This document shows positions 47,888 through 64,000 of a DNA stretch of 64,000 nucleotides, piece after piece (position 1 is the stretch's first letter; each line of letters begins with the position of its first letter). The DNA comes from Streptomyces sp. V3I8 (lineage in GTDB: Bacteria; Actinomycetota; Actinomycetes; Streptomycetales; Streptomycetaceae): the NCBI RefSeq assembly GCF_030817535.1, contig NZ_JAUSZL010000002.1, forward strand, positions 1,798,001 through 1,862,000. Reading direction: 5' to 3'. The position numbers were made by a program, and so were the translations under genes. The notes beneath the pieces were generated by a model. It made no database searches, was not told where the DNA came from, and saw nothing but the letters and a program-made list of their open reading frames with translations.

Positions 47888-48994
47888 CTAACTCGGCCGG
47901 CCTGTGGAGTACGGCCCGGTGGGCTGGTAGTACTCGGTGAACAGCCGCCCCACCAGCTCCCCGCGGCTGGACACGCCGAGCTTTTCGAAGATCGCTTTGA
48001 TGTGGTCGCGCACGGTGTGCGGCGAGAGATGGAGCTCCTCGGAGATCCCGCTGGTGGACAGTCCGCGCGCCACCTGCTGGGTGACCTCGAGCTCCCGCTC
48101 CGACAGCTCGTAGGCCTGCACGACGAGCGGTGTGACGTCGGAGACCGGAGCGCGTTCGATGATCACCGCGGAGACGCCCAGGTGCCCGTCGGGCCCGCGC
48201 AGGCAGGACGCGTGGCACACCAGCCAGCGGCCGGTGCGGGTGCGCATCCTGATGCGCGCGGTGCCCCCGCCGCGCTCCTCGGCGATCGCCCTGGCCCGCA
48301 TCGCGGTGCCGTACGCCCACAGGGGTACGCGCAGACCGAGCGCGGTGAGCGAGGCGGGACCCTTCGGCATCTCCTCCAGATAGCGCCGCGCCTCGTCGTT
48401 GACCGAGACGAGGGTGCCCTGGGCGTCGAACAGCAGCAGTCCGGTGCCGGTCAGGGCGTCGCCGGAGGGATCAGGGCGCTGTTTGGCGTACGCCCTGATC
48501 AGGCGCGCGACCGGCGTGCTCAGGTCCTCCACGAACCTGCGCTCCCCGGCGGAGAACTCGGCCCGCCCCTTCTCCCGGAACAGGCTGACGTACCCGTGGG
48601 GGCGGCCGTCCACCCGGAGCACGGCCCGCAACTCGTCGTGCACTCCGCGCGGCGCCAGGAACCCCCGGTACAGGGAGCTGCGCTCGGGTTCGCCCCCCGT
48701 GGTGTCCCACAGGCTGACCACCGGCACCGGCGCCAGCGCGAGGTCCCGGAACAGGTTGATCTTCTCCGTGAACAGCTCGTACTGCCAGTAGACGGCACAG
48801 CTGTGATCCTCGATGTTCTCCGCGAAGATCGGCGACGTGATCATGCCGGTCTCCGGGTCGGTGGCCCGCCAGACGGCGGCGTCGTACGGGACCGCCCTGC
48901 GCAGTTGTGTCGCGAGCGTGCTGAACAGCGTGTGCGGGCTGTCCGCGCGTCCGGCGCGCAGGAGGAGCTCGTCACGACCGGGCGCAGTGGGCAT
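47888..48994 (-). CDS. LuxR-family regulator with sensory domain
   Basis: A 368-residue regulator. The N-terminal 290 residues resemble GAF/PAS sensor regions (AVPYDAAVWRATDPETG; GTGLLLFDAQGTLVSVNDEA is PAS-like). The C-terminus is a LuxR helix-turn-helix: YELSERELEVTQQVARGLS and LHLSPHTVRDHIKAIFEKLG. It lies at the edge of the 3-amino-4-hydroxybenzoate cluster on the same strand as its first genes, so it is a plausible cluster regulator. Boundary membership is inferred. Confidence 0.88.
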   Translation of the reverse strand: MPTAPGRDELLLRAGRADSPHTLFSTLATQLRRAVPYDAAVWRATDPETGMITSPIFAENIEDHSCAVYWQYELFTEKINLFRDLALAPVPVVSLWDTTGGEPERSSLYRGFLAPRGVHDELRAVLRVDGRPHGYVSLFREKGRAEFSAGERRFVEDLSTPVARLIRAYAKQRPDPSGDALTGTGLLLFDAQGTLVSVNDEARRYLEEMPKGPASLTALGLRVPLWAYGTAMRARAIAEERGGGTARIRMRTRTGRWLVCHASCLRGPDGHLGVSAVIIERAPVSDVTPLVVQAYELSERELEVTQQVARGLSTSGISEELHLSPHTVRDHIKAIFEKLGVSSRGELVGRLFTEYYQPTGPYSTGRPS

Positions 48995-49113
48995 CTGCGG
49001 CACTCCGTTCCGGGGTGGTCCACGGATGATGAGGTGACCCTTGCCTGTCCCAACTCCACACCACCGTACGCCACTCGGCGGTTCCCGGCCGGTGACGGCG
49101 GCGGAGCCGGCCG

Positions 49114-49476
49114 TCACCACACCTCGTCCGGCAGCCACTGCGCGTACCGCCGCGAACCTACGAGGACGGGCCCGTCCCCGCAGACGTCCACGGCCGGCAG
49201 GTCGGCCGCCTCCGGCATCCTCGGTATCTCCGGTCCGACGTAGAGCGCGTCGATCCGGACGTGCTGGATTCCGAGTGGCCGCAGCAGCGCCAGGAGTGCG
49301 GGCCAGGACAACCGGATCCACCGCTGGGTGGGTCCCAGCGCGGCGTGGAGCCGTTCTTCGCCGGTGAAGGCGAGGCCGACCCGCTCCTGGCCGGCACCCG
49401 GCCGGGCCGTACGCACGACGGCCGCCGCACCACCGAGGTCGTCGCCCCGGACCGGGACGTACAGGAGCGCGTCCAC
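49114..49476 (-). CDS. SAV_915-type small protein
   Basis: A 120-residue protein opening with DALLYVPVRGDDLG, followed by VGLAFTGEERLHAALGPTQRWIRLS. This matches the Streptomyces SAV_915 family of unknown role. It starts at GTG 49476, four bases after the stop of the dehydroquinate-synthase-II-like gene, so it could be co-transcribed. No enzyme motif is visible. Confidence 0.75.
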   Translation of the reverse strand: MDALLYVPVRGDDLGGAAAVVRTARPGAGQERVGLAFTGEERLHAALGPTQRWIRLSWPALLALLRPLGIQHVRIDALYVGPEIPRMPEAADLPAVDVCGDGPVLVGSRRYAQWLPDEVW

Positions 49477-49480
49477 CGCG

Positions 49481-50587
49481 TCACGTCTCGAGGCAGAACT
49501 CGTCGAGCGGGTATCCGACGTGCCGGTCCTCCGTCGGCAGGAAGCCGAGCACCTTGTCGCCGGGCTTGAGCTCGGTGCTGTTGAGGACCTTGCCGCCCGG
49601 GCCGAGCACCCGTACGTGCCAGTCGTCCTGCAGGATCAGATTGACCTCATGGCCGTCGGCGGAGACCGCGTTCACCGAGATCAGCGGCCTGGTCTCGATC
49701 TTGACCCGGCCGACGGTGACGAGCCTGGTGCGGCCCTCGACGTCGGACGCCACGACCTTGCTGCCGGCCTTCAGTTCGCTGAGGTAGTTGGTGCGGCCGT
49801 CCTTGGACAGCGTGTACGAGTGGATGGCGCCGGCGTTCACCCGGAACGGGCGGGTCGGCATGTACGGCAGCGGATGTGTCTCGCTGACGCACAGGATCAT
49901 GCCCTTGGAGTGCGACCCGACCAGGATGCCCTCGTCCTTGCGGAAGTAGGTGCAGGTGTCGACGCAGGCGCGCTCGCCCATGCCCACGTGCTCGGTGCCG
50001 ACGACCTCGAGTTCGGTCAGGGTCAGGTCGGGGGTCTCGGCGTTGACCACGGTCTTCAGGGCGGTGGCGTCGCCGACCTTGCGGGGCGCCATCATGACGC
50101 CGTCGGAGCCGTGCTCGAGCACGCCGAAGATGATCTCGGCCTCCTCGACGTCGGCCGCCACCGTGATCAGGCTGCCCCGGGAGGAGGCGGACGCCGCGAT
50201 GACGATCTCCAGCGGGATCTTGGTCGGGTCGCGGAAGAGCAGCAGGCTCCACTGCTCGGTGCGCGCCGACTGGCAGGCGTCCTCCAGCGTCCCGGCATCG
50301 ACGATCTCCACGAACCGGCCGAATTCCAGCCCCGGGTGTTCGAGCTTCAGCTCGGCGGGGGTGATTTTGTGGAAGTCGGGGTCCACGATGACCACGGTCG
50401 CCTCGCCGAAGTCCTCCGGAAGGGTCTTGCCGCGGGGGAACAGCACCTTGGTGACGGTCGGGGGCAGGCCCTCCAGGGCTGCCGGGTCCGCCACGACGAT
50501 GCCGTCGACCCGCTGGTGCAGCGCCTCCTGGACGATGGCGTCCCGCGCCTCGTCGACGTTGCGGATGTCCAGCCAGCTGAGCTTCAT
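49481..50587 (-). CDS. griH: GriH-type 3-amino-4-hydroxybenzoate synthase (dehydroquinate synthase II family)
   Basis: A 368-residue member of the archaeal-type dehydroquinate synthase II family. In grixazone biosynthesis GriH converts the C7 product of GriI into 3-amino-4-hydroxybenzoate without oxidation. Family features include MKLSWLDIR, FGVLEHGSDGVMMAPR and GERACVDTCTYFRKDEGILVGSHSKG. It lies 18 bases downstream of the GriI-type aldolase, the invariant partner. The pair is diagnostic for 3,4-AHBA-derived metabolites. Archaeal shikimate function is unlikely because the gene is in a cluster with the aldolase and a tyrosinase-like oxidase. Confidence 0.93.
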   Translation of the reverse strand: MKLSWLDIRNVDEARDAIVQEALHQRVDGIVVADPAALEGLPPTVTKVLFPRGKTLPEDFGEATVVIVDPDFHKITPAELKLEHPGLEFGRFVEIVDAGTLEDACQSARTEQWSLLLFRDPTKIPLEIVIAASASSRGSLITVAADVEEAEIIFGVLEHGSDGVMMAPRKVGDATALKTVVNAETPDLTLTELEVVGTEHVGMGERACVDTCTYFRKDEGILVGSHSKGMILCVSETHPLPYMPTRPFRVNAGAIHSYTLSKDGRTNYLSELKAGSKVVASDVEGRTRLVTVGRVKIETRPLISVNAVSADGHEVNLILQDDWHVRVLGPGGKVLNSTELKPGDKVLGFLPTEDRHVGYPLDEFCLET

Positions 50588-50605
50588 GTGCGGGGCTCCT
50601 AGAGG

Positions 50606-51379
50606 TCACTCGCTGTGGATGAGGTCGGCCAGCTTCGCGGCCATGACGCCGGGATCGGGCGCCTCGAAGACGTTGCGGCCCATGGCCACGCCCGCGACGC
50701 CCGCGCTCAGCGCCTCGCCGACGTGGGCAAGGACCTGGCCCTCGTCGTCGTTGCGCGGACCGCCGACGGTGATGACCGGGACGGGAGAGCGGGAGGTGAT
50801 CTCCTTCATCTCCGTCACCGAGCCGACGTACGGGGCCTTCACCAGGTCGGCGCCGAGATCAGCGGCCAGGGTCACCGCGTGCGCCACCAGTGCGGGGTCG
50901 CGCGGATCGCTGATCCGGGGGCCGCGGGGGTACATCATCGCCAGCAGCGGTACGTTCCAGCGGTCGCAGGCTTCGGCGACCGCCGCCAGATCGGATATCT
51001 GCCGCTGCTCGCCGTCCGAGCCCAGGTTGACGTGCACGCTCACCGCGTCCGCGCCCAGCCGCAGGCTCTCCTCGACGCCGGCCACCAGGTACTTGGCGTC
51101 CGGGTCGGGAGCGTGCACGGTACTGGCGCTCAGGTGGACGATGAGCGAGGTGCTGCCGAACCAGGCGGGATCGACGTGCCGGAGACTGCCTTTGTGCAGG
51201 ACGATCGCGTCCACCCGGTTGGCGGCCAGCCGGCCCACGAGCGTGTCGAGCCCTTCGGCGCCGGTGATCGGTCCCTGGCTCACCGAGTGGTCCAGCGGCA
51301 CGATGAACAACCGTTCGGAATCGTTTCGGTAGAGGCGCCGCAGACGGAGTCGCCTGCCGAACGCGCCGTTGGAGATCAT
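50606..51379 (-). CDS. griI: GriI-type aldolase (DhnA/AroA' family)
   Basis: A 257-residue class I aldolase of the DhnA type. GriI joins aspartate-4-semialdehyde and dihydroxyacetone phosphate to the C7 precursor of 3-amino-4-hydroxybenzoate. Visible motifs are VPLDHSVSQGP, VSVHVNLGSD, MMYPRGP, the Schiff-base Lys in ADLVKAPYVGS and VITVGGPRNDDE. ATG 51379 has GAGGAAACCCC upstream. It is divergent from the ammonia-lyase gene; the 160-base gap between them must hold promoters for both arms of the cluster. Confidence 0.94.
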   Translation of the reverse strand: MISNGAFGRRLRLRRLYRNDSERLFIVPLDHSVSQGPITGAEGLDTLVGRLAANRVDAIVLHKGSLRHVDPAWFGSTSLIVHLSASTVHAPDPDAKYLVAGVEESLRLGADAVSVHVNLGSDGEQRQISDLAAVAEACDRWNVPLLAMMYPRGPRISDPRDPALVAHAVTLAADLGADLVKAPYVGSVTEMKEITSRSPVPVITVGGPRNDDEGQVLAHVGEALSAGVAGVAMGRNVFEAPDPGVMAAKLADLIHSE

Positions 51380-51454
51380 TGGGGTTTCCTCATTTCTCCG
51401 TGCCGGTCTTGCACCAACCCTGAAGAGGGCAGCTATCTTCGGTGTCTCATTCAC

Positions 51455-51481
51455 ATATCGCGTGCGACGCCTTTCCGATAT
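51455..51481. promoter_or_regulatory. Inverted repeat in the divergent promoter region
   Basis: ATATCG (51455-51460) and CGATAT (51476-51481) flank 15 bases in the gap between the aldolase and ammonia-lyase genes. Short arms make this a weak operator candidate, but its position allows control of both directions. Confidence 0.3.
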
Positions 51482-51539
51482 CGACGGGGAACATCAGCGG
51501 TCAAGACTCTTGGGAAACCGGCGAGAAAGGTGTCCACAA

Positions 51540-53138
51540 GTGACGACCATGAAAATTGACGGGCACGGCCTGAGCATCGCCCAGACCGTGGCCGCCGCGT
51601 CCCGCGAAGGTTCGGAATTCGCGGTCTCCGAGGACGCGTTACGGGCGATGAACGCCTCCCGGAACCTGAAATTGGAGATCCTCGCGACCGGCAAGCCCAT
51701 CTACGGGGTGACGACGGGTTTCGGCGACAGCGTCAACCGGCAGATATCGCCGGAGAAGACCGCGCGACTGCAGAACGAGCTGATCCGCTACCACCTGAAC
51801 GGAACCGGCCCGCTGGCCTCCGACGAGGTCGTGCGCGCCACCCTGCTGATCCGCGCCAACTGCCTGGCCCGGGGCAACTCCGGCGTCAGCCTCCCCGTGG
51901 TGGACCTGCTGCTGGACTTCCTCCGGCACGACATCCTGCCGACCGTCCCCGAGCGCGGCTCGGTCGGCGCCAGCGGCGACCTCGTCCCGCTCTGCTACCT
52001 CGCCCACGCCCTGACGGGCCAGGGCAGGGTGCGCCACCACGGCGAGACACGTCAGGCCGCGGAGGTGCTGGCCGAACTGGGCCTGGAGCCGGTGACACTG
52101 GAGGCCAAGGACGGGCTGGCGCTGATCAACGGCACCTCCTTCAGTTCGGCGTTCGCGGTCCTGAACACCGAGGCGGCGGCCGAACTCGCCGACGTGGCCG
52201 ACATCTGCACCGCCCTGGCCAGCGAGGGGATGCTCGGCAACCGGGGCCACTACGCGCCGTTCATCCACAACGAGAAGCCGCACGCCGGCCAGGGCGACAG
52301 CGCCGCGTTCGTCCACGATCTGCTCGAGGGCTCCTCACTGGCGATGACGTACGACCAGGTCGTCGACCTGAACGTCCCGCTGGACGGCCGGCACTACCAG
52401 AAGCTCACGCGCAGCATCCAGGACCGCTATTCGCTGCGCTGCGCCCCGCATGTCAACGGCGTCCTGCGGGACATGCTCGACTGGGTCCGCGCCTGGATGA
52501 CGGTGGAGATCAACTCCTCCAGCGACAACCCGCTGTTCGACCCCTCCACGGGCGCCGTGTACAGCGGCGGCAACTTCTACGGCGGGCACGTCGTCACCGC
52601 GATGGACTCGCTGAAGACGGCCGTCGCCGGCATCGCCGACCTGCTCGACCGGCAGCTCGCGCTCCTGGTCGACGAGAAGTTCAACAACGGCCTCACACCG
52701 AACCTGATCGCCCGGGTGGCCGACGACGACACCGAGGCCGGGCTCCAGCACGGCTTCAAGGGCATGCAGATCGCGTGCTCGTCGCTCACCGCCGAGGCAC
52801 TCAAGCACGCGGGACCGGCCTCCACGTTCTCCCGCTCCACCGAGGCCCACAACCAGGACAAGGTCAGCATGGCCCCGATCGCGGCGCGCGACGCGCGCAA
52901 CGTGATCGAGCTGACCCGTGAGGTCGCGGCCATCCACCTGCTCGCCGCCTGCCAGGCCGTCGAACTGCGCGGCGTCGACGAGATGAGCCCTCGGACCAAG
53001 GCCGTGCACGCACGCATCCGCAAGGAGGTCCCCTTCGCCGCCAAGGACCGGCAGATGGACGGTGACATCGCCGCGGTCGTGGAGATGATCATCTCCGGCG
53101 CCGTCACCGAGGCCGCTCGGGCGGGAGGGAACCTGTGA
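51540..53138 (+). CDS. MIO-dependent aromatic amino acid ammonia-lyase (probable tyrosine type)
   Basis: A 532-residue lyase. The Ala-Ser-Gly triad that forms the MIO group is in GSVGASGDLVPL (residues 144-146), the catalytic Tyr in PIYGVTTGFGD, and INSSSDNPLF and GGNFYGGHVV are conserved. The substrate dyad is Tyr84-His85 (IRYHLNG), neither the SH of histidase nor the HL or FL of typical TAL and PAL. Context (UbiD decarboxylase, AHBA genes) favours tyrosine to p-coumarate. GTG 51540 has GAAAGG nine bases before it; ATG 51549 is the alternative. Confidence 0.9.
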   Translation: MTTMKIDGHGLSIAQTVAAASREGSEFAVSEDALRAMNASRNLKLEILATGKPIYGVTTGFGDSVNRQISPEKTARLQNELIRYHLNGTGPLASDEVVRATLLIRANCLARGNSGVSLPVVDLLLDFLRHDILPTVPERGSVGASGDLVPLCYLAHALTGQGRVRHHGETRQAAEVLAELGLEPVTLEAKDGLALINGTSFSSAFAVLNTEAAAELADVADICTALASEGMLGNRGHYAPFIHNEKPHAGQGDSAAFVHDLLEGSSLAMTYDQVVDLNVPLDGRHYQKLTRSIQDRYSLRCAPHVNGVLRDMLDWVRAWMTVEINSSSDNPLFDPSTGAVYSGGNFYGGHVVTAMDSLKTAVAGIADLLDRQLALLVDEKFNNGLTPNLIARVADDDTEAGLQHGFKGMQIACSSLTAEALKHAGPASTFSRSTEAHNQDKVSMAPIAARDARNVIELTREVAAIHLLAACQAVELRGVDEMSPRTKAVHARIRKEVPFAAKDRQMDGDIAAVVEMIISGAVTEAARAGGNL

Positions 53139-54463
53139 CCGCCACCGCGAACACCGGGGTGGCCCCCTCCGGTCCGGCGTCCGGCCCGCTGCCGGCCATC
53201 GGTGACTGGAAGTCCTTCGACGAACTGCGGGCGCTCCAGCAGGAGCGGATCGAGCCGACGCTGTGGCACGCCCTCGACTCACCGTTCTACGCCGAGCGTC
53301 TGAAGGCCGGGCAGAAGCTGTCCACGGTGGGCCTCACCGGGAAGTCGGACCTGCGCGACAGTTACCCGTTCGGCATGCTCGGCGTGCCCAGGGAGCGGCT
53401 GGCCTCCTACCACGAGTCCAGCGGCAGCACCGGCAACCCGACCCCCGCCTACTTCACCCAGGCGGAGTGGACCGACCTGGCCGACCGGTTCGTCCGCAAG
53501 GCCGTCCCGCTCGGTCCGCAGGACACCATGCTGGTGCGCATCCCCTACGGACTGGTGCTCGCCGGGCACATGGCCCACTGGGCCGCCATGCGCAGCGGTG
53601 CGACCGTCGTCCCCGGCGACTGCCGCTCGCTCGCGGTGCCCTACGCGCGGGTCGTGCGCGTGCTGCGCGACCTCGAGGTGACGCTGACCTGGTCGACGCC
53701 GAGCGAGAGCCTGCTGTGGGTCGCCGCGGCCAAGGCCGCCGGCCACCCCGCCGATTCCTTCACGTCGCTGCGGGCTCTGTACGTGGCGGGCGAACCGATG
53801 AGCAACGCGCGCCGCCGCCGGATCGAGGAGATCTGGGACGCCCCGGTGATCGAGGAGTACGGCTGCACCGAGGTCGGCCCGCTGGGCAGTGACTGCCCGT
53901 ACGGCCGGATGCACTTCTGGGCCGACCGGGTGCTGCCGGAGATCTACGACCCGCAGACCGGGGAGATCGCCGCCGAGGGCGCCGGGCAGCTGGTCATCAC
54001 CCCGCTGTACCGCGAAGCGATGCCTTTGGTGCGCTACAACCTCGAGGACCTGGTGGAACTGCGGTACGAGGACTGCCCCTGCGGGTGGAACCTCCCCACC
54101 GTGCGGGTCATGGGCCGGCTCGGCCAGGGCCACACGGTGGCCGGACGGCGTCTCGGGCAGATCCAGGTGGAGGAGATGGTCCACCGGCTTCCCGCCTCCC
54201 ACGGCGTGCTGTTCTGGCGGGCCAGGGCCGAACAGGACCGTCTGGTGGTCGAGTTCGAGGCGCCCGGTCCGGACGGCGAAGAGGCCGCCGCGTCGCTCGC
54301 GGCGTCCGTCGAGACGGAGCTCGGGGTGCCCTGTGCGGCCGGCGCGGTGCCCGAGGGCACCCTGGTGCCGACCGCGTTGCTGGCGGAGCAGCTGGACGCC
54401 ATGAAGCCGCGCAAGCTGTTCGGGCCCGACGAGGACTGGGGGCAAGCCGTTGTCCGGGGTTGA
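53135..54463 (+). CDS. PaaK-like AMP-forming ligase
   Basis: A 442-residue adenylate-forming enzyme of the phenylacetate-CoA ligase type. The P-loop reads HESSGSTGNPTP, the adenine-binding motif YGCTEVGPLGSDC and the later VRYNLEDLVEL; CPCG is the family's Cys motif. Its GTG start overlaps the lyase stop by four bases. In bagremycin/ferroverdin-type clusters a ligase of this kind is expected to activate 3,4-AHBA for ester formation with p-vinylphenol, or p-coumarate. The exact acceptor cannot be read from sequence. Confidence 0.88.
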   Translation: MTATANTGVAPSGPASGPLPAIGDWKSFDELRALQQERIEPTLWHALDSPFYAERLKAGQKLSTVGLTGKSDLRDSYPFGMLGVPRERLASYHESSGSTGNPTPAYFTQAEWTDLADRFVRKAVPLGPQDTMLVRIPYGLVLAGHMAHWAAMRSGATVVPGDCRSLAVPYARVVRVLRDLEVTLTWSTPSESLLWVAAAKAAGHPADSFTSLRALYVAGEPMSNARRRRIEEIWDAPVIEEYGCTEVGPLGSDCPYGRMHFWADRVLPEIYDPQTGEIAAEGAGQLVITPLYREAMPLVRYNLEDLVELRYEDCPCGWNLPTVRVMGRLGQGHTVAGRRLGQIQVEEMVHRLPASHGVLFWRARAEQDRLVVEFEAPGPDGEEAAASLAASVETELGVPCAAGAVPEGTLVPTALLAEQLDAMKPRKLFGPDEDWGQAVVRG

Positions 54464-54466: not shown

Positions 54467-55501
54467 ATGGTGATCGTGATGGCGCCACAGGCCACCGCGT
54501 CGGACATCGCCGCGGTCGTCGCGCGGGTCGAGTCGGCGGGCGGCAAGGCCTTCGTCAGCCGTGGGACGAGCCGCACCGTCATCGGACTGGTCGGCGACAT
54601 CGAGCAGTTCGGCACGCTCGACCTCGGCGTCCTGCGCGGGGTCGCCGAGGTGGTGCGCATCTCGGCGCCGTACAAGCTGATCAGCAGGGAGAGCCACCCG
54701 GACCGCTCGGTGGTCCTGGTGGGCGGGACGCCGATCGGTCCCGGCGCGCCGACGCTGATCGCCGGGCCCTGCGCGGTGGAGACGCCGGAGCAGACGCTGC
54801 GGGCGGCGCTGATGGCCCGGGCGGCCGGCGCGACCGTACTGCGGGGCGGCGCCTTCAAGCCCAGAACCTCTCCCTACGCCTTCCAGGGCCTGGGGGAGGC
54901 CGGGCTGAGGATCCTCGCCGACGTGCGCGCCGAGACCGGCCTGCCCGTCGTCACCGAGGTGGTCGACGCCCACGACGTCGAACTGGTCGCCTCGTACGCC
55001 GACATGCTGCAGATCGGCACCCGCAACGCGCAGAACTTCGCGCTGCTGCAGGCCGTGGGCGACGTGGGCAAGCCGGTCATGCTCAAACGGGGGATGTCCG
55101 GGACCATCGAGGAGTGGCTGATGGCCGCCGAGTACGTGGCGCAACGCGGCAACCTCGACATCGTGCTGTGCGAACGCGGCATCCGGACGTTCGAGACGGC
55201 CACGCGCAACACTCTGGACATCTCCGCCGTGCCCATCGTCCAGCGGCGGTCGCACCTTCCCGTCATCGTCGACCCCTCGCACTCGGGTGGGCGGCGCGAC
55301 CTCGTGCTTCCCCTGACCCGGGCGGCGCTGGCCGTCGGCGCCGACGGGATCATCGTCGACGTGCACCCCGACCCGGCGACCGCGTTGTGCGACGGACCCC
55401 AGGCGCTCGTCCACGAGGACATGGAAGAACTCGGCGCGGCCATGCGCGGCGAGACCGCCGTGAGGCGCCGGGTCCTCGACGGGGTCGCCTCCCTGCTGTG
55501 A
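54467..55501 (+). CDS. aroF: DAHP synthase (AroF, type I-beta)
   Basis: A 344-residue 3-deoxy-D-arabino-heptulosonate-7-phosphate synthase of the Thermotoga/Bacillus subtype. An N-terminal ferredoxin-like regulatory domain (about 75 residues, DIAAVVARVESAGGKAFVSR) precedes the barrel with AGPCAVET, RGGAFKPRTSPYAFQGLG, MLQIGTRNAQNF and DPSHSGG. In a cluster it supplies extra shikimate-pathway flux, here for tyrosine. It starts three bases after the ligase stop, forming a tight lyase-ligase-synthase operon that ends at the terminator at 55506. Confidence 0.93.
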   Translation: MVIVMAPQATASDIAAVVARVESAGGKAFVSRGTSRTVIGLVGDIEQFGTLDLGVLRGVAEVVRISAPYKLISRESHPDRSVVLVGGTPIGPGAPTLIAGPCAVETPEQTLRAALMARAAGATVLRGGAFKPRTSPYAFQGLGEAGLRILADVRAETGLPVVTEVVDAHDVELVASYADMLQIGTRNAQNFALLQAVGDVGKPVMLKRGMSGTIEEWLMAAEYVAQRGNLDIVLCERGIRTFETATRNTLDISAVPIVQRRSHLPVIVDPSHSGGRRDLVLPLTRAALAVGADGIIVDVHPDPATALCDGPQALVHEDMEELGAAMRGETAVRRRVLDGVASLL

Positions 55502-55642: not shown

Positions 55643-57019
55643 ATGACGACAGGCAAGAGCATCGTGAGGCCGACCGCGGCGGAACTCTCCGAACGGCTGC
55701 GCGGCCGGGTCCTGCTGCCGGGAGACGACGACTTCGCCGAGGAGCTGGACGGGTTCAACCAGATCACCGAGCACTCCCCGGACCTGATGGCCGTCGTGGC
55801 CGGGGCCGAGGACGTGCGTGAAGCCGTGGCCTTCGCCGCCGTCCGCGGGATACCGATCGCCGTCCAGGCCACCGGCCACGGCCCGTCCGCCGCGGCGGAC
55901 GGCGGACTGCTGATCAGCACCCGCCGGATGCGCGGCGTGAGCATCGACCCGGCCGCACGGACCGCCCGGGTCGAGGGCGGCACGCAGTGGTTCGAGGTGG
56001 TCGAGGCGGCCGCCGAGCACGGCCTCGCCCCGCTCAACGGCTCCTCGCCGCTGACCGGGGTGATCGGCTACACCCTCGGGGGCGGCCTCGGGCTGATGGC
56101 CCGCAGGTACGGCTACGCCGCCGACCACGTCACCGCCGTCGAGATCGTCACGCCCGACGGGCGCTCGCGCCGGGCCACCGCCGTCCAGGACGCCGACCTC
56201 TTCTGGGCCGTGCGCGGCGGCAAGGGCAACTTCGGCGTCGTCACCGCCCTCGAGTTCGGCCTCGTACCGGTGACACGGCTGTACGGCGGTGGGCTGTTCT
56301 TCCCCGGCGAGGCCGCCGTGGAGGTGCTGCACGCCTGGCGCGCGTGGACCTCGGTCGTGCCCGAGGACCTCACCTCCTCGCTGGCACTGCTGCGGATGCC
56401 GGACGTCGAGGAGATCCCGCCCTTCCTGCGCGGCCGGCTGACCGTGCACGTGCGGATCGCCTATCTGGGCTCGGCGGAGGACGGGAACAAGCTGGTCGAG
56501 CCGCTGCGCGCCGCCGGTCCGCTGGTCGTCGACACCCTCGCCGACATGCCGTACACGAGGTTCGGGGAGATCCACAACGACCCGACCGAGCCGATCCCCT
56601 ACAGCGAGCGGTCGATGATGCTCCGCGAGCTGGACACGGCGGCGGTCGACACGCTGCTGGAGCTGGCGGGCCCGGGTGCCGACTGCATCGACCTGGTCGT
56701 GGAACTGCGGCAGCTGGGCGGCGCGGTCGGCCGGCCGCCCGAGCGGCCGAACGCCGTCGACCACCGGGACGCCGCATTCGCGCTGTCGACCCTCTCACTG
56801 CCCGACAACCGCCCCCCGCTCGTGGTGGACGGCATGGCGGCATGGGGCACCGGACGGCGCTATCTCAACTTCCTGGCCAGTCCGGACACCGCGCACCTCG
56901 CCGAGAGCGGTTATGAACCGGCCACTTTCGCCCGGTTGACCGAGATCAAGACCCGCATCGATCCGGACAATCTTTTCCGATTCAACCACAATATCGTGCC
57001 ACGCCCCTCGTCGGCCTGA
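55643..57019 (+). CDS. Berberine-bridge-type FAD-linked oxidase
   Basis: A 458-residue flavoprotein of the BBE/PCMH class. The FAD domain has VQATGHGPSAAADGG, in which His79 fits the 8-alpha-histidyl attachment site. The second (6-S-cysteinyl) site is absent, since SSPLTGVIGYTLGGGLG has no Cys. The C-terminal BBE domain ends YLNFLASP and KTRIDPDNLFRFNHNI. It may oxidise a phenol, alcohol or the nitroso/amino product; no role is established in this pathway. The ribosome site is GGAGGACTGAGG. A decayed relative lies at 61.1-61.7 kb. Confidence 0.9.
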   Translation: MTTGKSIVRPTAAELSERLRGRVLLPGDDDFAEELDGFNQITEHSPDLMAVVAGAEDVREAVAFAAVRGIPIAVQATGHGPSAAADGGLLISTRRMRGVSIDPAARTARVEGGTQWFEVVEAAAEHGLAPLNGSSPLTGVIGYTLGGGLGLMARRYGYAADHVTAVEIVTPDGRSRRATAVQDADLFWAVRGGKGNFGVVTALEFGLVPVTRLYGGGLFFPGEAAVEVLHAWRAWTSVVPEDLTSSLALLRMPDVEEIPPFLRGRLTVHVRIAYLGSAEDGNKLVEPLRAAGPLVVDTLADMPYTRFGEIHNDPTEPIPYSERSMMLRELDTAAVDTLLELAGPGADCIDLVVELRQLGGAVGRPPERPNAVDHRDAAFALSTLSLPDNRPPLVVDGMAAWGTGRRYLNFLASPDTAHLAESGYEPATFARLTEIKTRIDPDNLFRFNHNIVPRPSSA

Positions 57020-57158: not shown

Positions 57159-57527
57159 ATGAAACGACGTGACGTGATGAAGGGCGTGGCGGGCGCCGCC
57201 GCGGTCGTGGCGGCGCCCGCCGCCGTCATCCACGCAGGCAACACCTGGGCCGCGTCCAACGACGACACGGCCGCGACCCGGGCCGCCGACGAGTCCGGGG
57301 ACCTGTACACCGAGCAGTACAAGGGCCGCACGATCACCGTGTCGAAGAGCACCGAGAAGGTGCACATCGACGGCAGCGAACTGCACCTGATGAAGCTGGG
57401 TGAGGACGCCTACCTCAGCTCGATGTGCCACTACCGGTTCGAGCCCACCCCGCTGGCCGCCGGCCGGCAGGCCGTCGACGAGCTGCGCGGGGCGAACCTG
57501 CTGCCCTCCGGCGGCCACCATGCCTGA
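57159..57527 (+). CDS. MelC1/GriE-type copper chaperone for the tyrosinase-like oxidase
   Basis: A 122-residue tyrosinase cofactor protein. It begins with a twin-arginine-like signal (MKRRDVMKGVAGAAAVV) followed by a domain with YKGRTITV, DGSELHLMKLGEDAYLSSMCHY and the C-terminal HH. The Met/Cys/His residues are typical of copper-delivering MelC1 proteins. It is directly upstream of the copper oxidase with 34 bases between, the invariant order in Streptomyces. It may carry its partner through the Tat pathway, as MelC1 does, or act inside the cell as GriE does. Confidence 0.93.
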   Translation: MKRRDVMKGVAGAAAVVAAPAAVIHAGNTWAASNDDTAATRAADESGDLYTEQYKGRTITVSKSTEKVHIDGSELHLMKLGEDAYLSSMCHYRFEPTPLAAGRQAVDELRGANLLPSGGHHA

Positions 57528-57561: not shown

Positions 57562-58485
57562 ATGGTTCCCGTTCGCAAGAACCACCTCGCCATGACCGCC
57601 AGGGAGAAGGGACGCTTCATCCGGGCGCTGCTGCGGGTCAAGGAGACGGGCGTCTACGACGAGCTGGTCCGGCTTCACATAAAGATCAACTCGGGTGACT
57701 ACCTGGACAAGGACGGTGGCGTCGGCAAGCGCTGGGGCCACATGAGCCCGGGCCTGTTCCCGTGGCACCGCCAGTACCTGCTGGTCCTGGAGCGGGCGCT
57801 GCAGCGGATCGATCCCACCGTCACCATCCCGTACTGGGACTGGACCAAGGACCAGAGCCTCGACTCGCCCCTGTGGGCCGACACCTTCATGGGCGGCAAC
57901 GGCCGGCCCGGCGACGGCATGGTCACCACCGGCCCGTTCGCCCGCCGCAACGGCTGGAAGCTCAACATCAGCGTGGTGCCGGTGGGCGACGAGCACCCGG
58001 CGTTCAACGGCCACTACACCACGGACGACCGGGACTACCTGGTCCGCGACTTCGGGACCGTCAACCCCGACCTGCCGACGACGAAGGAGCTGGAGGACAC
58101 CCTCGCCATCCCGACGTACGACACGCCGCCCTACAACTACACCTCGGGGTACGGCACCGAGACGCAGTCCCTGCGCAACCACCTGGAGGGGTACGCGAAG
58201 TTCCCCTACGAGGCCAACCTCGGCAAGCTGCACGGCGCCGGCCACACCTGGGTGGGCGGCCACATGCTGTACATCGGGTCGCCCAACGATCCCATCTTCT
58301 TCATGCACCACTGCTTCCTCGACAGGGCCTGGTCGATCTGGCAGAAGCAGCACCCGGACGTTCCGCAGTACCTGCCGGTGGAGGACCACCCGGACGTCCC
58401 CTCGCTGCACACGAAACTCGCGCCCTGGTACACGATGACGCCGGCCGATCTGCTGGACTCCACGAAGTTCTACCGCTACGAATAG
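57562..58485 (+). CDS. Tyrosinase-like copper oxidase (GriF/NspF type, o-aminophenol oxidising)
   Basis: A 307-residue type-3 copper enzyme. CuA ligands are H39 (RLHIK), H60 (WGHMSPG) and H69 (PWHRQY); CuB ligands are H224 and H228 (KLHGAGHTW) and H250 (FMHHCF). The residue after the first CuB His is Gly, whereas tyrosinases have Asn there, so monophenol hydroxylation is probably lost. GriF oxidises o-aminophenols to phenoxazinones and NspF makes o-nitrosophenols. In an AHBA/vinylphenol cluster a nitroso-forming role is favoured. ATG 57562 with GAGAGGGAAG is preferred; ATG 57520 overlapping the chaperone stop is possible. Confidence 0.92.
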   Translation: MVPVRKNHLAMTAREKGRFIRALLRVKETGVYDELVRLHIKINSGDYLDKDGGVGKRWGHMSPGLFPWHRQYLLVLERALQRIDPTVTIPYWDWTKDQSLDSPLWADTFMGGNGRPGDGMVTTGPFARRNGWKLNISVVPVGDEHPAFNGHYTTDDRDYLVRDFGTVNPDLPTTKELEDTLAIPTYDTPPYNYTSGYGTETQSLRNHLEGYAKFPYEANLGKLHGAGHTWVGGHMLYIGSPNDPIFFMHHCFLDRAWSIWQKQHPDVPQYLPVEDHPDVPSLHTKLAPWYTMTPADLLDSTKFYRYE

Positions 58486-58601: not shown

Positions 58602-58655
58602 GGCGTTCACACGCTCATACGTCAACACTCGCACATCACTAACGGGGGTATAGAT

Positions 58656-59651
58656 ATGTGCGCCGCCTACGAATTCCGAATACTAGGCCCACTGTTCGTG
58701 ACGAACGGAGGGGAACAGATCGAAATAAGCGGGATCCGCCGGCAGAAGTTACTGGCGGCGCTGCTTCTTCAGCCGAATCAGACGGTCAGCCTGGACCGGC
58801 TCGTCGACGCCATGTGGGACGACAAGCCGCCCGCGTCCGCCCACGGACAGATCCGCATCTGCGTCTCCGGTCTTCGCCGCCTGCTCAGGGGAGGAGAGCG
58901 CGACAGCGTGATCGAGACCCATCCCTCCTGCTACCGGATCAACGTCCACGACGAGGACGCCCTGGACCTGTTCACGTTCGAACGGCTGGTCTCCCAGGGA
59001 CGGGCGATGGTCCGCGACAACCAGCTGGAGCGCGCCGAGAGGCTGCTGAAATCGGCGCTCGCGCTGTGGCGCGGACCGGTCGTGGCGGGCCTCGACAGCC
59101 CGGCGCTGGCCTCGCTCGTCGTCAAGCTCCACGAGGACCGGCTGACCCTGCAGGAGGAGTACTTCGACGTGGCGCTGAAGCTGGGGCGCCACCAGCAGAT
59201 CATCGGCGATCTGTCCGGCTTCGTCACCGAGAACCCCTTCAGGGAACGCGCCTGTGCCCAGCTGATGCTCGCGCTGTACCACTCGGGTCGCCAGGCGGAC
59301 GCCCTGGAGACCTTCCGCACCACCAGGATGCGGTTCTCCGAGGACCTCGGCATCGAGCCGACCCGCGACCTGCACGTCCTGCACCAGTCGATCCTGGCGG
59401 GACAGCTCTCCTCCACGGCCGCACGCCCTTCGGCCTCGGTGGCACCGCCCTCTCCCCACGCGAACGGCCACCGGGGTCGTCCGGCCTGCCTCTCACTGCT
59501 CTCACAGGCCTCGCCGGACATCACCGGCGACCCGATGGAGCAGCTGCGGCTGGAGAACGACCTGCTCCGCATGGAACGCGACGGGCTCCGCGGGATCCTG
59601 TCCCTGTGGCTGGACCTGAACGACGGCGATGCAGGCGCCGCGGCCTCCTGA
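58656..59651 (+). CDS. SARP-family transcriptional activator
   Basis: A 331-residue pathway-specific activator. The OmpR-like winged helix fills residues 5-95 (EFRILGPLFV, RRQKLLAALLLQPNQTVSLDRLVDAMW, then HGQIRICVSGLRRLL) and the bacterial transcriptional activator domain follows (LFTFERLVSQG, ALWRGPVVAGL, LMLALYHSGRQADAL). A C-terminal tail contains a short coiled coil (EQLRLENDLLRMERD). SARPs bind heptameric repeats near -35 and switch on their cluster; GriR plays this role in grixazone. The 170 bases upstream hold three ACAGTTGCC copies. Confidence 0.93.
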   Translation: MCAAYEFRILGPLFVTNGGEQIEISGIRRQKLLAALLLQPNQTVSLDRLVDAMWDDKPPASAHGQIRICVSGLRRLLRGGERDSVIETHPSCYRINVHDEDALDLFTFERLVSQGRAMVRDNQLERAERLLKSALALWRGPVVAGLDSPALASLVVKLHEDRLTLQEEYFDVALKLGRHQQIIGDLSGFVTENPFRERACAQLMLALYHSGRQADALETFRTTRMRFSEDLGIEPTRDLHVLHQSILAGQLSSTAARPSASVAPPSPHANGHRGRPACLSLLSQASPDITGDPMEQLRLENDLLRMERDGLRGILSLWLDLNDGDAGAAAS

Positions 59652-59657
59652 ACCGTC

Positions 59658-59729: not shown

Positions 59730-59732
59730 GCG

Positions 59733-61091
59733 TCAGGCCTCCTGCTGCACCCGGGCGGGCGGGAGCGTCAAGGCGATCAGGCCGGCCAGCAGCGGGAGAA
59801 CCGCGACGACGGCGAGCGCGCTGGTGAGGTCCATGTGCTCGGAGAGGGTCCCGGCCGCGGCCGAGCCGATACCGCCGCCCACGAAGAACAGCAGGTTGAG
59901 CACGCCCATGGCGCCACCGCGCTGAGCGGGCTCGAGGCGGCTGGAGAGCACGGCGGTGGTGAGCACCTGCGTAGCGGCGAACGTCGCCATGCCCATGGAG
60001 GTGCCGATGAGCATGACGACGATGCCGCCGTCGACGAGACCGACGATGCCGAGGAACACCGCGCAGCTCACGGCGGTCACGGCGAGCAGCAGGCTGCCGC
60101 CCTTGCCGGCGGCGAGCTTGCTGGCCACACGAGCGGCCACGGCGCCGACGACCGCGCCCGGCAGCAGCCAGGCACCGATCTTGAACACGCCCCAGCCGTA
60201 CTGCATGGCAAGGATCTGCGGCACCGCGTACATCGCGGCGAACAGTCCGGCGTAGCCGCCCACGCCGATCATCGCGGAGGTCAGGAAGGTGCGGTCGGTG
60301 GCCAGTTCACGGGGGAGGAAGCCGTCGGGCCGCCTGCCGATGTGCACCAGCAGGCCGGCCACCGACACCACGAGGAGCACTGCCAGTCCGATCACCGGCA
60401 AGGTGTCGAGGTCGAGGGAGGAGGCTTGGATGAGCAGGAGCAGCGAGGTCGCGCCGGCGCTCAGCAGGACCCCACCGGTCACGTCGACGGCCTTGCCGTA
60501 GCCAGGGCGGGAGGCCGCGAGCTCCAGGCAGAAGGGCACCATCAGCAAGGAGAGCGCCGGCAGCACCAGGGTCAGCCGCCAGTCCAGCCAGTCCGTCACC
60601 ATGCCGCCCATGAGGGTGGCGGTGGAGGAGAACAGCGCCATGGACGCGCCGAAGATGGCCAGGATCTTCGTCCGGAGTGCGGGCGCCGCCGCCGAGGCGA
60701 GCGTGAGGGCGCTGGAGGTGATGGCGCCGGAGCCCACCGCCTGCACGAACCGGCCGGCGATCAAGGTGCCGAAGCCCGGGGCGACCAGGCACAGGACCGC
60801 GCCCACGGCGAGGAACAGGGCGCCGGTGAGGAGGGTGTTGCGCACCCCCCACTTCTCGGAGAGCCGCCCGAAGAACGCGGTGCCCACACCGAGCGCGAGG
60901 GCGTGCGCGGTCAGCACCCAGCCGGCGACGGCAGGGCGGACCTCCATCTCCATGGCGACGTCGGGCAGCGCCACGCCCGCGGCGGTCACCCCGAAGATCA
61001 CGGGGCCGAAGAGCGCTCCGAGCCTGAGTCCGGTGGAGCCCGCACCGGGTGCGGTTCGCGGCGGGGCCTGCACCGCACTGTTGGTCGTCAT
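59733..61091 (-). CDS. MFS drug-efflux-type transporter
   Basis: A 452-residue membrane protein with about fourteen hydrophobic segments of the DHA2 type. Motif A appears as GRLSEKWGVRNTL after TM2 and the antiporter motif region as GRFVQAVGSGAI. Placed inside the cluster with a MarR gene nearby, it probably exports the product and gives self-resistance. ATG 61091; a decayed frame upstream on the same strand ends with an ATGA overlap on this start. Confidence 0.92.
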   Translation of the reverse strand: MTTNSAVQAPPRTAPGAGSTGLRLGALFGPVIFGVTAAGVALPDVAMEMEVRPAVAGWVLTAHALALGVGTAFFGRLSEKWGVRNTLLTGALFLAVGAVLCLVAPGFGTLIAGRFVQAVGSGAITSSALTLASAAAPALRTKILAIFGASMALFSSTATLMGGMVTDWLDWRLTLVLPALSLLMVPFCLELAASRPGYGKAVDVTGGVLLSAGATSLLLLIQASSLDLDTLPVIGLAVLLVVSVAGLLVHIGRRPDGFLPRELATDRTFLTSAMIGVGGYAGLFAAMYAVPQILAMQYGWGVFKIGAWLLPGAVVGAVAARVASKLAAGKGGSLLLAVTAVSCAVFLGIVGLVDGGIVVMLIGTSMGMATFAATQVLTTAVLSSRLEPAQRGGAMGVLNLLFFVGGGIGSAAAGTLSEHMDLTSALAVVAVLPLLAGLIALTLPPARVQQEA

Positions 61092-61684
61092 CGAGAGTCG
61101 TCCCTTCCAGGATTCCTGAGGTGTGCCGGGTCGGCGTCTTCGTGCGGTCGGGGGTTCTTCACGCGGGACGTTCGGACGGCCCTCGCACGCGGCGGGAGGG
61201 TGCGGTCGAACCGGAAGGGGTTCTCCGGGTCGTACCGGGCCTTGACCCCGCCCGGCCGCGCGTGGCCGGGCGGGCGGGCGTGGCCGGCCGGGACCGCGTG
61301 GCCGGCCGGGACCGCGCGGTCCCGGCCGGGCGGTCCCCGGTCCGGCGGGGACGGGGAGGCCGGGACGGCTGCGGCCCGTTCCGTGGTGTGCCATGCCGTC
61401 CACGACGTGTTCCGGGCGTCCCGCGCGCCGGCCTCGGCCCGGACGACCCGGGCCACGGGGCCGGTGGTCACGCCGGTCGCCCGGCGGGCGCCGACGAGCG
61501 GTCCGGTCCCGGCGGCGAGCGGTCCGGTCCCGGCCGCGAAGGCGACGGCCTTGCGCACCTGCGGGGCGTCCCGTGCGGCGGGGCCGTCGCGGGCCGATGC
61601 CGGGGGCCCGGCCGAACCCGGCGGCCCCGGCCGCACGTCCCTCGCCCCCGGCCCCCGGCACCGGGCCGGGAAGGCGGTCGACAA
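61088..61684 (-). pseudogene. Decayed berberine-bridge-type oxidase remnant
   Basis: The frame is mostly low-complexity Pro/Ala/Gly/Arg, but near its end (61190-61252) it reads GGVKARYDPENPFRFDRTLPP with one residue shifts, the unmistakable C-terminal BBE motif (compare KTRIDPDNLFRF in the intact gene at 55.6 kb). A weaker match, VRKAVAFAA, resembles the FAD-domain start. The middle is missing. The frame ends in an ATGA overlap with the MFS gene, suggesting the intact ancestor was co-transcribed with it. Two perfect 18-bp tandem units lie at 61280-61315. Confidence 0.55.
61280..61315. repeat. Tandem 18-bp repeat in the decayed oxidase
   Basis: Two perfect copies of GTGGCCGGCCGGGACCGC lie side by side inside the decayed frame and are followed by a related inverted stretch. 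This is typical of slippage in GC-rich DNA no longer under selection. Confidence 0.85.
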
Positions 61685-61786
61685 GCCCTTGCGCGGTTGC
61701 CGGTCCGTACATGTGTCAGCCCTCCCAGTCGGAGCCAGTCGGTTCGCTGATCACACTTCCAGCGCCGGCTCGGAGGGCCCATCCCT

Positions 61787-62242
61787 CTATTGAGGGGAAG
61801 TGGACTGCGGCATGTCGCCCAGGACACGGAGCATCTCGACCAGTTGCCCCATCCGCTTCTCGCCCAGCAGCTCCTCCACCCGCGCGTGCAGTCGCGCGGC
61901 CTCCTCGACCGCCTCGGCCAGGCGCCGGCGGCCGGCGCCGGTGAGGGCGACGATGCGGCGTCTGCGGTTCGCCGGGTCCATCTCCTTGGTCAGCAGGCCG
62001 CGCGCCTCCAGACGGTCCAGCAGGACGGTGAGCGTGGAACGGTCGACGGCTGCCAGGGCACCCAGCGCGGACTGATCCAGGCTGCCGTGGTCGTCCAGGG
62101 CGAGCAGCACCGCGAACTGAGGACTGGTCAGGTCGGGCAGGCGCTGCTGCCACAGCGCCGTCCAGGTCTGTCCGGCCCGGCGCAGCTGATGCGGCAGCGC
62201 CTCTTCCAGTTGTGGCCGCGGTCGGGGGCTTGTGTTCGTCAT
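61787..62242 (-). CDS. MarR-family transcriptional regulator
   Basis: A 151-residue winged-helix repressor: LTSPQFAVLLALDDHGSLDQSALGALAAVDRSTLTVLLDRLEARGLL, wing MDPANRRRRIVALTGAG. MarR proteins often sense phenolic compounds. It is divergent from ubiX, with a 12-bp direct repeat and a palindrome in the 60-base gap, so it likely controls the decarboxylase operon and itself in response to a pathway phenol. Confidence 0.93.
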   Translation of the reverse strand: MTNTSPRPRPQLEEALPHQLRRAGQTWTALWQQRLPDLTSPQFAVLLALDDHGSLDQSALGALAAVDRSTLTVLLDRLEARGLLTKEMDPANRRRRIVALTGAGRRRLAEAVEEAARLHARVEELLGEKRMGQLVEMLRVLGDMPQSTSPQ

Positions 62243-62252
62243 GGCGACCACT

Positions 62253-62284
62253 ATATTCAGTACAAGGATATTCCGTACACGGAA
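62253..62284. promoter_or_regulatory. Direct repeat and palindrome between MarR and ubiX
   Basis: ATATTCAGTACA (62253-62264) and ATATTCCGTACA (62268-62279) match at 11 of 12 positions with a 15-base period. TTCCGT-AC-ACGGAA (62271-62284) is an overlapping palindrome. AT-rich and centred between the divergent starts, this is the probable MarR site. Confidence 0.6.
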
Positions 62285-62302
62285 GGTTTCGGTGGAGGCA
62301 GG

Positions 62303-62941
62303 ATGCGACTGATCGTGGGAATGACCGGCGCCACCGGTGCGGCGCTGGGCGTTCGGCTGCTCACCGAGTTGCGCGGGAACCCGCAGGTGGAGACGCATCT
62401 GGTGCTCAGCCGCTGGGCGCGCACGACGGTGGAGCTGGAGACCGGGCTGAGCGCCCGCGAGGTGGCCGCGCTGGCCGACGTCACCTACTCGCCCGACGAC
62501 CAGGGGGCGGCGATCTCCTCCGGCTCGTTCCCCGCCGACGGCATGGTGATCGTCCCGTGCAGCATGAAGACGCTGGCCGGCATCCGGGCCGGGTACGGCG
62601 AAGGGCTGATGGTCCGCGCCGCCGACGTGACGCTCAAGGAGCGGCGCCGGATGGTTCTGGTGCCGCGGGAGACGCCGCTCAACGAGATCCATCTGTCGAA
62701 CATGCTGGAACTCGCCCGCATGGGCGTCTCGATCGTGCCGCCCATGCCCGCCTTCTACAACCGGCCGGAGTCGGTGGACGACATCGTCGGCCACATCGTC
62801 ATGCGAGTCCTCGACCAGTTCGGGCTCGGGACCGCCGGCGCCCGGCGCTGGGACGGCTTCCCGCGGCCGCCGGCCGGCCCCGCGGCCGACGCCCCCGCGA
62901 CACGCCACAACGGCACGAAACAGAGGAGCGCCCGTTCATGA
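62303..62941 (+). CDS. ubiX: UbiX-type flavin prenyltransferase
   Basis: A 212-residue flavoprotein that makes prenylated FMN, the cofactor of UbiD decarboxylases. Motifs are MRLIVGMTGATGAALGVRLL, HLVLSRWA, SSGSFPADGMVIVPCSMKTLAGI and PRETPLNEIHLSNML; all are characteristic. ATG 62303 has GGAGG eight bases upstream. The stop overlaps the UbiD start by four bases (ATGA), the normal coupling of the pair. A C-terminal Arg/Pro/Ala tail of about 25 residues is extra. Confidence 0.96.
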   Translation: MRLIVGMTGATGAALGVRLLTELRGNPQVETHLVLSRWARTTVELETGLSAREVAALADVTYSPDDQGAAISSGSFPADGMVIVPCSMKTLAGIRAGYGEGLMVRAADVTLKERRRMVLVPRETPLNEIHLSNMLELARMGVSIVPPMPAFYNRPESVDDIVGHIVMRVLDQFGLGTAGARRWDGFPRPPAGPAADAPATRHNGTKQRSARS

Positions 62942-64000
62942 CCGACCCCACGGCCGACCCCACGACCAGCCCCACGACCGACCCCACGGCCGGGCCGGTG
63001 ATCCGGTTCGGTGAACTGCGCGGTTACCTCGACGCACTGGAGGCCCTCGGCGACCTGCACCGCGTCACACGACCGGTGAGCGCCGACCTGGAAGCCGCCG
63101 CGATCAGCCGTCTGTCCTGCGAACGGCAGTCCGCCGCCCCGCTGTTCGAGAACGTCGAGGGCGTCGCGCCGGGCTTCCGGTTGCTCGGGGCGCCCGCCGC
63201 GCTCAGCTCCGCTCCCGGCAAGCCGCTGGCCCGGGTCGCCCTGTCCGTCGGCCTGCCCGCCGGGACCACCGCCGCCGAACTGGTCGACCACCTGGCCCGC
63301 ACCCGCGAGGCGAAGCCCGTGCCCCCTCGGCCGGTCGCACGGGAGGACGCGCCCTGCAAGCAGAACGTGCTGCTGGGCGACGACGCCACCCTCGACCGCT
63401 TCCCGGTGCCCCGGGTCCACGAGTTCGACGGCGGACCCTACGCCAACACCTGGGGCATCATCGTCGCCAGGACACCGGACGGCCGGTGGACCAACTGGTC
63501 CATCGCCCGGATCATGCTGATCGACGGCAGGCACATGACCGGCCTGGTGATTCCGGCGCAGCACATCGGCATGATCTGGTCGCAGTGGGTGGAGATCGGC
63601 GAGCCGATGCCGTACGCGCTGGTGCAGGGCGGCGACCCGGCCATCCCGTTCGTCGGGGGCGTTCCGCTGCCGCCGGGAGTCGACGAGGCCGGCTACATCG
63701 GGGCGCTGCACGGCGAGCCGGTCGACGTCGTGCGGTGCGAGACGGTGGATCTGGAGGTGCCCGCGGGCGCGGAGATCGTCATCGAGGGGCATCTGTCCGT
63801 CGGCCGCGACGCGCGGGAGGGACCGTTCGGCGAGTTCGCCGGATACGGCTCCACCGAGACGTCGATGCAGCCGGTGTACACGGTCGAGGCCATCACCCAC
63901 CGCGACGACCCGATCTGGCCGCTGGTGGCCGAGGGCCGGCCGGTGGACGAGTTCCACACCGTGACGGGCGTCGGTCAGGCGGCCGAAGTCCTGGCGGAGC
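62938..64000 (+). CDS. ubiD: UbiD/Fdc-type prenylated-FMN decarboxylase (runs off the window)
   Basis: The first 354 residues are visible. After a Pro/Thr/Asp-repeat extension (DPTADPTTSPTTDPTAG), the UbiD fold begins at IRFGELRGYLDALEALGDLHR. Metal/cofactor residues are seen in PYANTWGIIVA and NWSIARIMLIDGRHMTGLV, and the catalytic Glu region in EGPFGEFAGYGS. The NWSIAR segment is typical of Fdc1-like cinnamic/ferulic acid decarboxylases. Here it should turn p-coumarate into p-vinylphenol, using cofactor from the coupled ubiX gene. The C-terminus lies beyond position 64000. Confidence 0.92.
   Translation, partial: MTDPTADPTTSPTTDPTAGPVIRFGELRGYLDALEALGDLHRVTRPVSADLEAAAISRLSCERQSAAPLFENVEGVAPGFRLLGAPAALSSAPGKPLARVALSVGLPAGTTAAELVDHLARTREAKPVPPRPVAREDAPCKQNVLLGDDATLDRFPVPRVHEFDGGPYANTWGIIVARTPDGRWTNWSIARIMLIDGRHMTGLVIPAQHIGMIWSQWVEIGEPMPYALVQGGDPAIPFVGGVPLPPGVDEAGYIGALHGEPVDVVRCETVDLEVPAGAEIVIEGHLSVGRDAREGPFGEFAGYGSTETSMQPVYTVEAITHRDDPIWPLVAEGRPVDEFHTVTGVGQAAEVLAE

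Follow-up and report, generated by a model that had tools for sequence, protein, structure and literature searches.

A ferroverdin/bagremycin-type gene cluster with a remnant of fevA1 in Streptomyces sp. V3I8

Introduction

The fev/bag (ferroverdin/bagremycin) clusters of Streptomyces lunaelactis MM109 (PMC6692506), Streptomyces sp. WK-5344 and Streptomyces sp. Tu 4128 are the closest described counterparts of the locus considered here, a cluster of the same genes in a 64,000-nucleotide stretch of Streptomyces sp. V3I8 (the window; C2:1798001-1862000 of a 9.3 Mb genome in 4 contigs). In the pathway model given in the available part of PMC6692506, FevI and FevH make 3-amino-4-hydroxybenzoate (3,4-AHBA, or AHBA), FevV and then FevK and FevL yield p-vinylphenol, FevF and FevE provide the nitroso acid, FevW unites both halves, and iron decides the product. 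As of 2022, according to the available sections of PMC9221444, the pathway enzymes had been neither inactivated nor characterised for substrate selectivity.

Two other kinds of cluster resemble this one in part. As listed in Table 1 of PMC6692506, the gri and nsp clusters have in common with the window AHBA synthesis, an o-aminophenol oxidase with its chaperone, a SARP and a LuxR regulator and one FevA-type flavoenzyme; unlike in the window, no tyrosine ammonia-lyase, ester synthetase, 3-deoxy-D-arabino-heptulosonate 7-phosphate (DAHP) synthase, UbiX/UbiD or MarR gene is found there. The ahb cluster (ahbamycins) of S. argillaceus, which was located through SARP genes, carries AHBA genes and acyl ligases; methyltransferases, reductases and kinases are among the products of its 31 genes, which are not the fev set (PMC10179220, in the part available).

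The locus in the window is a genuine fev/bag cluster with an already known gene set, complete except for fevA1 (bagK). The cluster itself is already explained, and the real difference is the loss of fevA1. Its value lies in comparison: repeated loss makes the role of this gene testable, and a naturally fevA1-null cluster renders one open enzyme assignment directly testable.

The locus carries the fev/bag genes in the S. lunaelactis order

Genes were called from codon-position composition, both in the window and in the 40 kb that follow it (positions beyond 64,000 are extended coordinates), and the region's proteins were scanned against NCBIfam and Pfam. Fourteen proteins of the locus score at or above the curated cut-offs of NCBI BagX/FevX models (Table 1), and with 14 such fev/bag-specific scores chance is excluded. 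FevO, which matches no fev-specific model in the list, was identified via its SAV_915 domain and its counterparts in reference clusters. All 15 listed genes other than fevA1 have open frames in the window. The cluster runs from 47888 to 64467, with FevT, FevO, FevH and FevI on the minus strand and FevV, FevW, FevY, FevA2, FevE, FevF and FevR on the plus strand; to their right, FevB, the fevA1 remnant and FevM are again on the minus strand and FevK and FevL on the plus strand.

Read from the prephenate dehydrogenase and FevL to FevT, the genes stand in the order given for S. lunaelactis by Table 1 of PMC6692506, which does not show strands. An earlier note, made from the window's letters without database searches, had drawn up a parts list and named bagremycins and ferroverdins as the metabolites. 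Every part that it named is present, and its identification of the cluster holds for each gene and in the published order (PMC6692506, Table 1). The comparison it had proposed shows that content and order match fev and bag, and contradicts a grixazone or nsp type (same table). What it offered as distinguishing features did not survive, since the order is the one in that table and the "extra flavoenzyme" is FevA2/BagG, a standard part; if anything, the cluster has one flavoenzyme fewer. The note's overall reading was thus right about identity but unsupported on what sets the cluster apart, and it missed both the loss of fevA1 and the overrun of FevL. Beyond 64 kb, where it had asked for more sequence, FevL completes 467 bases past the window's end, at 64467, and the next gene, at 64674-65759, encodes the prephenate dehydrogenase.

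Differences from the described clusters are few. Unlike in the S. lunaelactis, WK-5344 and Tu 4128 clusters, fevA1/bagK is a remnant in the window. fevE is open in the window, whereas Table 1 of PMC6692506 gives bagZ, its equivalent in Tu 4128, as a pseudogene. Beyond FevT, that table has a carboxymuconolactone decarboxylase, and the window has a PcaD-PcaC fusion (46003-47289) in that place.

The genes common to gri, nsp and the window (Table 1 of PMC6692506) might suggest a grixazone/nsp-type cluster with a phenoxazinone or nitrosobenzamide as product in place of a vinylphenyl ester. Such a cluster would combine AHBA synthesis and an aminophenol oxidase without lyase, ester synthetase or UbiX/UbiD, and those genes are present here. 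FevV, FevW, FevY, FevK, FevL and FevM each match their fev-specific model and are not found in gri or nsp in the same table, and we regard this alternative as exceedingly improbable. An ahb-type cluster was likewise rejected, as the window has the fev set, and a second AHBA cluster was ruled out because FevH is single-copy genome-wide at E 1e-10. All in all, the genes make it very likely that the locus is a fev/bag cluster and, jointly, that its core products are bagremycins and ferroverdins.

fevA1 is reduced to its two ends

The place of fevA1 is between FevB and FevM, and it is there, on the minus strand, that the remnant lies. It matches bases 1-332 and 1151-1443 of a 1443-base fevA1 stretch of Streptomyces sp. 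E2N166 (L009) at 74% and 76% identity, gaps counted (blastn, E 2.8e-65). The two ends of the gene (the first ~0.33 kb and the last ~0.29 kb) have been joined, the middle ~0.8 kb is missing, there are further small indels, and the pieces stand in different reading frames. The motif of intact FevA1 whose histidine we take to bind flavin adenine dinucleotide (FAD) falls in a gap of the match or opposite histidine-less sequence. At the remnant the FevA1 model scores 26.8 bits against a cut-off of 800, and on FevA2 it reaches 757. Where two flavoenzymes might be expected we find FevA2 and a remnant. Aligned permissively, the remnant gave 616 columns at 86% identity with numerous gaps; this alignment overfits and was set aside, and the size of the loss is taken from the blastn blocks.

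Searching the V3I8 genome with FevA2 (E <= 1e-10) gave four matches. Besides FevA2 there are one of 53% and two of 33-36% identity, none of them a close second copy of fevA1. The 53% paralogue, at C2:1367162, was considered as a replacement and rejected: its neighbourhood looks unrelated and includes a gene that, judged by eye from its translation, is transposase-like.

fevA1 and fevY are the variable genes among related clusters

A pattern-based scan of an 84,980-species collection with FevW as query returned 21 loci. Ten of these (L006-L015, FevW 76-92% identical) are fev clusters and the other eleven (51-57%) are not. Close relatives of FevW occur in 5 of 392 genomes drawn from the genus, with the window's own counted, and among the best 120 of 640 matches listed from the protein database the ten nearest (own excluded) are 77-91% identical and the next 62%.

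As far as the fetched stretches extend (those of L007 and L009 break off within FevL, those of L014 and L015 within FevB, and the L010 contig ends after FevW), the ten reference loci hold the same core genes. FevT, FevO, FevH, FevI, FevV, FevW and FevA2 are seen in all of them and in the window; FevE, FevF, FevR, FevB, FevM, FevK and FevL are seen in every cluster whose stretch covers them, L010 being mostly uncovered. This leaves FevA1 and FevY as the variable genes. fevY is present in four reference loci (L007, L008, L009 and L011) and was not found at E 1e-60 in the remaining six genomes (L006, L010, L012-L015), absence being least sure for S. bobili, whose cluster is split across contigs. 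Missing from six of ten fev-bearing genomes, fevY is an accessory gene.

An open fevA1 accompanies nine of the ten loci. It was read within the locus in seven (L006, L007, L009, L012-L015), lies on another contig of the genome in L010 (458 amino acids) and outside the first stretch in L011 (454 amino acids). The exception is S. malachitofuscus JCM 4493 (L008), where fevA1 is reduced to pieces of 26 bases and of 43 to 61 bases and where, FevA2 aside, the genome holds no other match above 45% identity. Like that in the window, its cluster has fevY, and its genes stand in the same order. Because S. malachitofuscus also does without FevA1, we treat FevA1 as an accessory rather than a defining feature of fev/bag clusters.

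Three side observations came out of the same scan. Compared with the window, four of the ten references (L011, L013, L014 and L015) have the FevL-FevK-FevM block, together with FevA1-FevB, in inverted orientation. In S. fulvorobeus (L012) the matches to fevA2, fevR and fevK fragment into different frames, through draft-sequence errors or decay. Among the eleven more distant loci, nine have FevI and FevH beside a FevW-like ligase with no further fev gene found, L025 combines FevI and FevH with a split ligase match, and L022 has the ligase alone; this unit of FevI-FevH and ligase (51-57%; L016-L021 and L023-L026, in Streptomyces, Actinomadura and other actinomycetes) is possibly a separate AHBA-activating cluster type.

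fevA1 appears to have been lost twice

Is the absence of fevA1 from the window and from S. malachitofuscus the legacy of a single event? The breakpoints in L008 differ from those in the window, and so does its position in a midpoint-rooted tree, computed under LG+F+G4 with 1000 ultrafast bootstraps from 14 concatenated proteins spanning 4647 columns. Of these 14 proteins eight are missing for L010, and FevL is missing for L007 and L009; split matches are represented by their best piece only. The window groups with L007 and L009 (support 100), L006 joins next, the branch that parts these four from L008 and all others having support 93, and the window and L008 are separated by fevA1-bearing clusters. 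Given that L006, L007 and L009 carry fevA1, the tree suggests two separate losses, one in the window and one in S. malachitofuscus, barring a regain of the gene.

The remaining genes look intact

One gene reduced to a remnant with many indels might be the first to go in a decaying cluster whose pathway is non-functional in strain V3I8. The other 15 frames are open, the active-site residues that we tested are retained, and dN/dS (the ratio of nonsynonymous to synonymous substitution rates) stays below 0.6 in all comparisons, which makes decay unlikely. Pairwise values against L009, L007, L006 and L008 range from 0.12 to 0.58 in 59 comparisons, FevO being highest, with FevY absent from L006 and FevL compared with L007 and L009 over short pieces.

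FevV has the MIO motif Ala-Ser-Gly at 141-143 and His82-Leu83, present in 10/10 references, the His-Leu pair being what we take to be the rule for tyrosine-type selectivity. In FevL, Arg191, Glu294 and Glu299, presumably the catalytic Arg-Glu-Glu of UbiD enzymes, are conserved in all seven references covering these positions; among solved structures it is closest to UbiD-like decarboxylases and then to several Fdc1 entries, in line with a predicted decarboxylation of cinnamates. The best solved relative of FevW is AjiA1, and FevA2 retains a His79 that is identical in the nine references covering it. FevF keeps six copper histidines, Asn43, a seventh histidine (His249) and Thr229, identical in 9/9 covered references, and its best solved relative is 9t62, that is, SmNspF. 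In the available part of PMC12982950, replacing Asn43 in GriF abolishes nitroso formation, and the seventh histidine, present in NspF and absent from GriF, is tied to affinity for carboxylated substrates. FevF and NspF thus have in common both the nitroso selector Asn43 and the seventh histidine.

A proposed pathway and the place of FevA1

Gene identity, order, frames, residues and the fevA1 remnant come from the present analysis, the pathway steps from the literature. On this basis, FevI and FevH would convert dihydroxyacetone phosphate and aspartate semialdehyde to 3-amino-4-hydroxybenzoate, while FevV would turn tyrosine, probably supplied with the help of FevY and the adjoining prephenate dehydrogenase, into p-coumarate, to be decarboxylated to p-vinylphenol by FevL with prenylated flavin from FevK. 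FevE would load copper into FevF for oxidation of the aminophenol to its nitroso form, and FevW would adenylate the benzoate and couple it to p-vinylphenol. The products would be bagremycins and, with plentiful iron, nitroso monomers that chelate Fe(II) as ferroverdins. FevB is the likely exporter, and FevR, FevT and FevM the likely regulators. Strain V3I8 is accordingly predicted to make bagremycins, and ferroverdins when iron is in excess.

Where does FevA1 fit? With the gene lost here and separately in S. malachitofuscus, we lean towards the view that the core pathway can do without it, perhaps with FevA2 standing in. A rival scenario, compatible with the identity of the cluster, is that the loss shifts the product, to amino compounds (bagremycins) only or to a changed set of ferroverdins, FevA1 performing a tailoring or redox step beyond FevA2. 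FevA2 of the window shares only 62-69% identity with reference FevA1 proteins, retention of both genes in nine of ten reference clusters suggests distinct roles, and cluster oxygenases have been raised as possible ligand-modifying enzymes (PMC9221444, in the part available). Two separate losses with the remaining cluster conserved fit dispensability equally well, however, and we see a product shift as a real possibility that we do not favour.

The best solved relative of FevA2 is mitomycin radical oxidase 9r43 (431 bits, with EncM behind at 216), which, from the title of the structure, we assume to be McrA. McrA is an FAD-dependent oxidoreductase that converts a hydroquinone form to the quinone and confers self-resistance (PMC9570651, in the sections available). 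With such a relative, FevA proteins may act as oxidases and not as oxygenases. Tentatively, and with some doubt, we suggest one of two roles: either the FevA pair resembles mitomycin radical oxidase and keeps reduced or radical aminophenol/nitroso products oxidised, for self-protection or redox balance, a single copy sufficing in some strains; or FevA1 sets the balance between amino and nitroso forms and fevA1-less strains have shifted to one product. A literature search, in which neither most subscription journals nor the 2019 bag-cluster paper of Ye et al. were covered, found no functional study of FevA1 and no fevA1-less cluster, the latter search including the available text of PMC7408125.

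Several observations tell against a working fev/bag cluster in which fevA1 is dispensable. Losing FevA1 could change or eliminate a product. Much of what keeps pairwise dN/dS low may date from before the loss, and low values alone cannot show that the cluster still works. The tree is midpoint-rooted and based on cluster proteins only, with proteins missing from three taxa. The analogy with NspF is imperfect, as the residue at HisB2+1 is Thr in FevF but Gln in NspF and Val in GriF (PMC12982950, in the part available). The PcaD-PcaC neighbour beyond FevT is without match in the ten reference loci. Finally, no iron box turned up on the plus strand of the window and the 40 kb after it: no site matched a 19-base, nearly palindromic DmdR/IdeR-type consensus at 13 or more bases, though other iron control is possible.

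Annotated features, regulation and neighbourhood

Table 1. Features of the fev/bag locus in window coordinates; scores are bits/model cut-off
Feature	Position	Strand	Evidence
fevT/bagY, LuxR-family regulator	47888..48994	-	NF041232 765/700; start = model's beginning in frame
fevO, SAV_915-domain protein	49114..49476	-	NF042914 60.8/40; counterpart 53-84% identical in 10/10 reference clusters
fevH/bagC, 3,4-AHBA synthase (GriH type)	49481..50587	-	NF041224 819/750
fevI/bagB, DhnA-type aldolase (GriI type)	50606..51379	-	NF041223 559/500
fevV/bagA, predicted MIO tyrosine ammonia-lyase (Tyr to p-coumarate)	51549..53138	+	NF041222 1145/1000
fevW/bagE, PaaK-like bagremycin/ferroverdin synthetase	53135..54463	+	NF041217 910/800
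fevY/bagF, DAHP synthase	54467..55501	+	NF041229 726/700
fevA2/bagG, FAD-linked oxidase	55643..57019	+	NF041227 938/850
fevE/bagZ, copper chaperone, open frame	57159..57527	+	NF041221 235/200
fevF/bagH, o-aminophenol oxidase	57562..58485	+	NF041220 669/630
fevR/bagI, SARP activator	58656..59651	+	NF041231 589/500, match from 58698; ATG 58656 picked by eye
fevB/bagJ, MFS exporter	59733..61091	-	NF041228 886/800
fevA1/bagK remnant	61092..61712	-	blastn to three fevA1 genes (L006, L007, L009), best E 2.8e-65
fevM/bagL, MarR regulator	61787..62242	-	NF041230 288/230
Direct repeat ATTCAGTAC / ATTCCGTAC, candidate FevM operator	62255..62278	.	fevM-fevK gap alignment
fevK/bagM, UbiX-type flavin prenyltransferase	62303..62941	+	NF041218 434/420
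fevL/bagN, UbiD/Fdc-type decarboxylase	62938..64000, on to extended coordinate 64467	+	NF041219 1081/1000

The direct repeat between the divergent fevM and fevK genes, ATTCAGTAC/ATTCCGTAC, has a 15-bp period and is exact in eight of ten aligned sequences (the window, which is one of the eight, and nine references); L006 is one base off. In S. smaragdinus (L013) both halves are altered similarly, GTAC becoming GTGTAC, the kind of change that a binding site might show. The repeat is a candidate for such a site, perhaps for FevM.

A second prephenate dehydrogenase, 77% identical to the cluster copy, is encoded elsewhere in the genome, and the cluster copy looks dedicated. A search of plasmid records gave seven records with partial matches, none with at least 80% query coverage. 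Within the window, a short frame at 39491-39718 contains a transposase helix-turn-helix domain (HTH_Tnp_4) and is likely a fragment of an insertion element.

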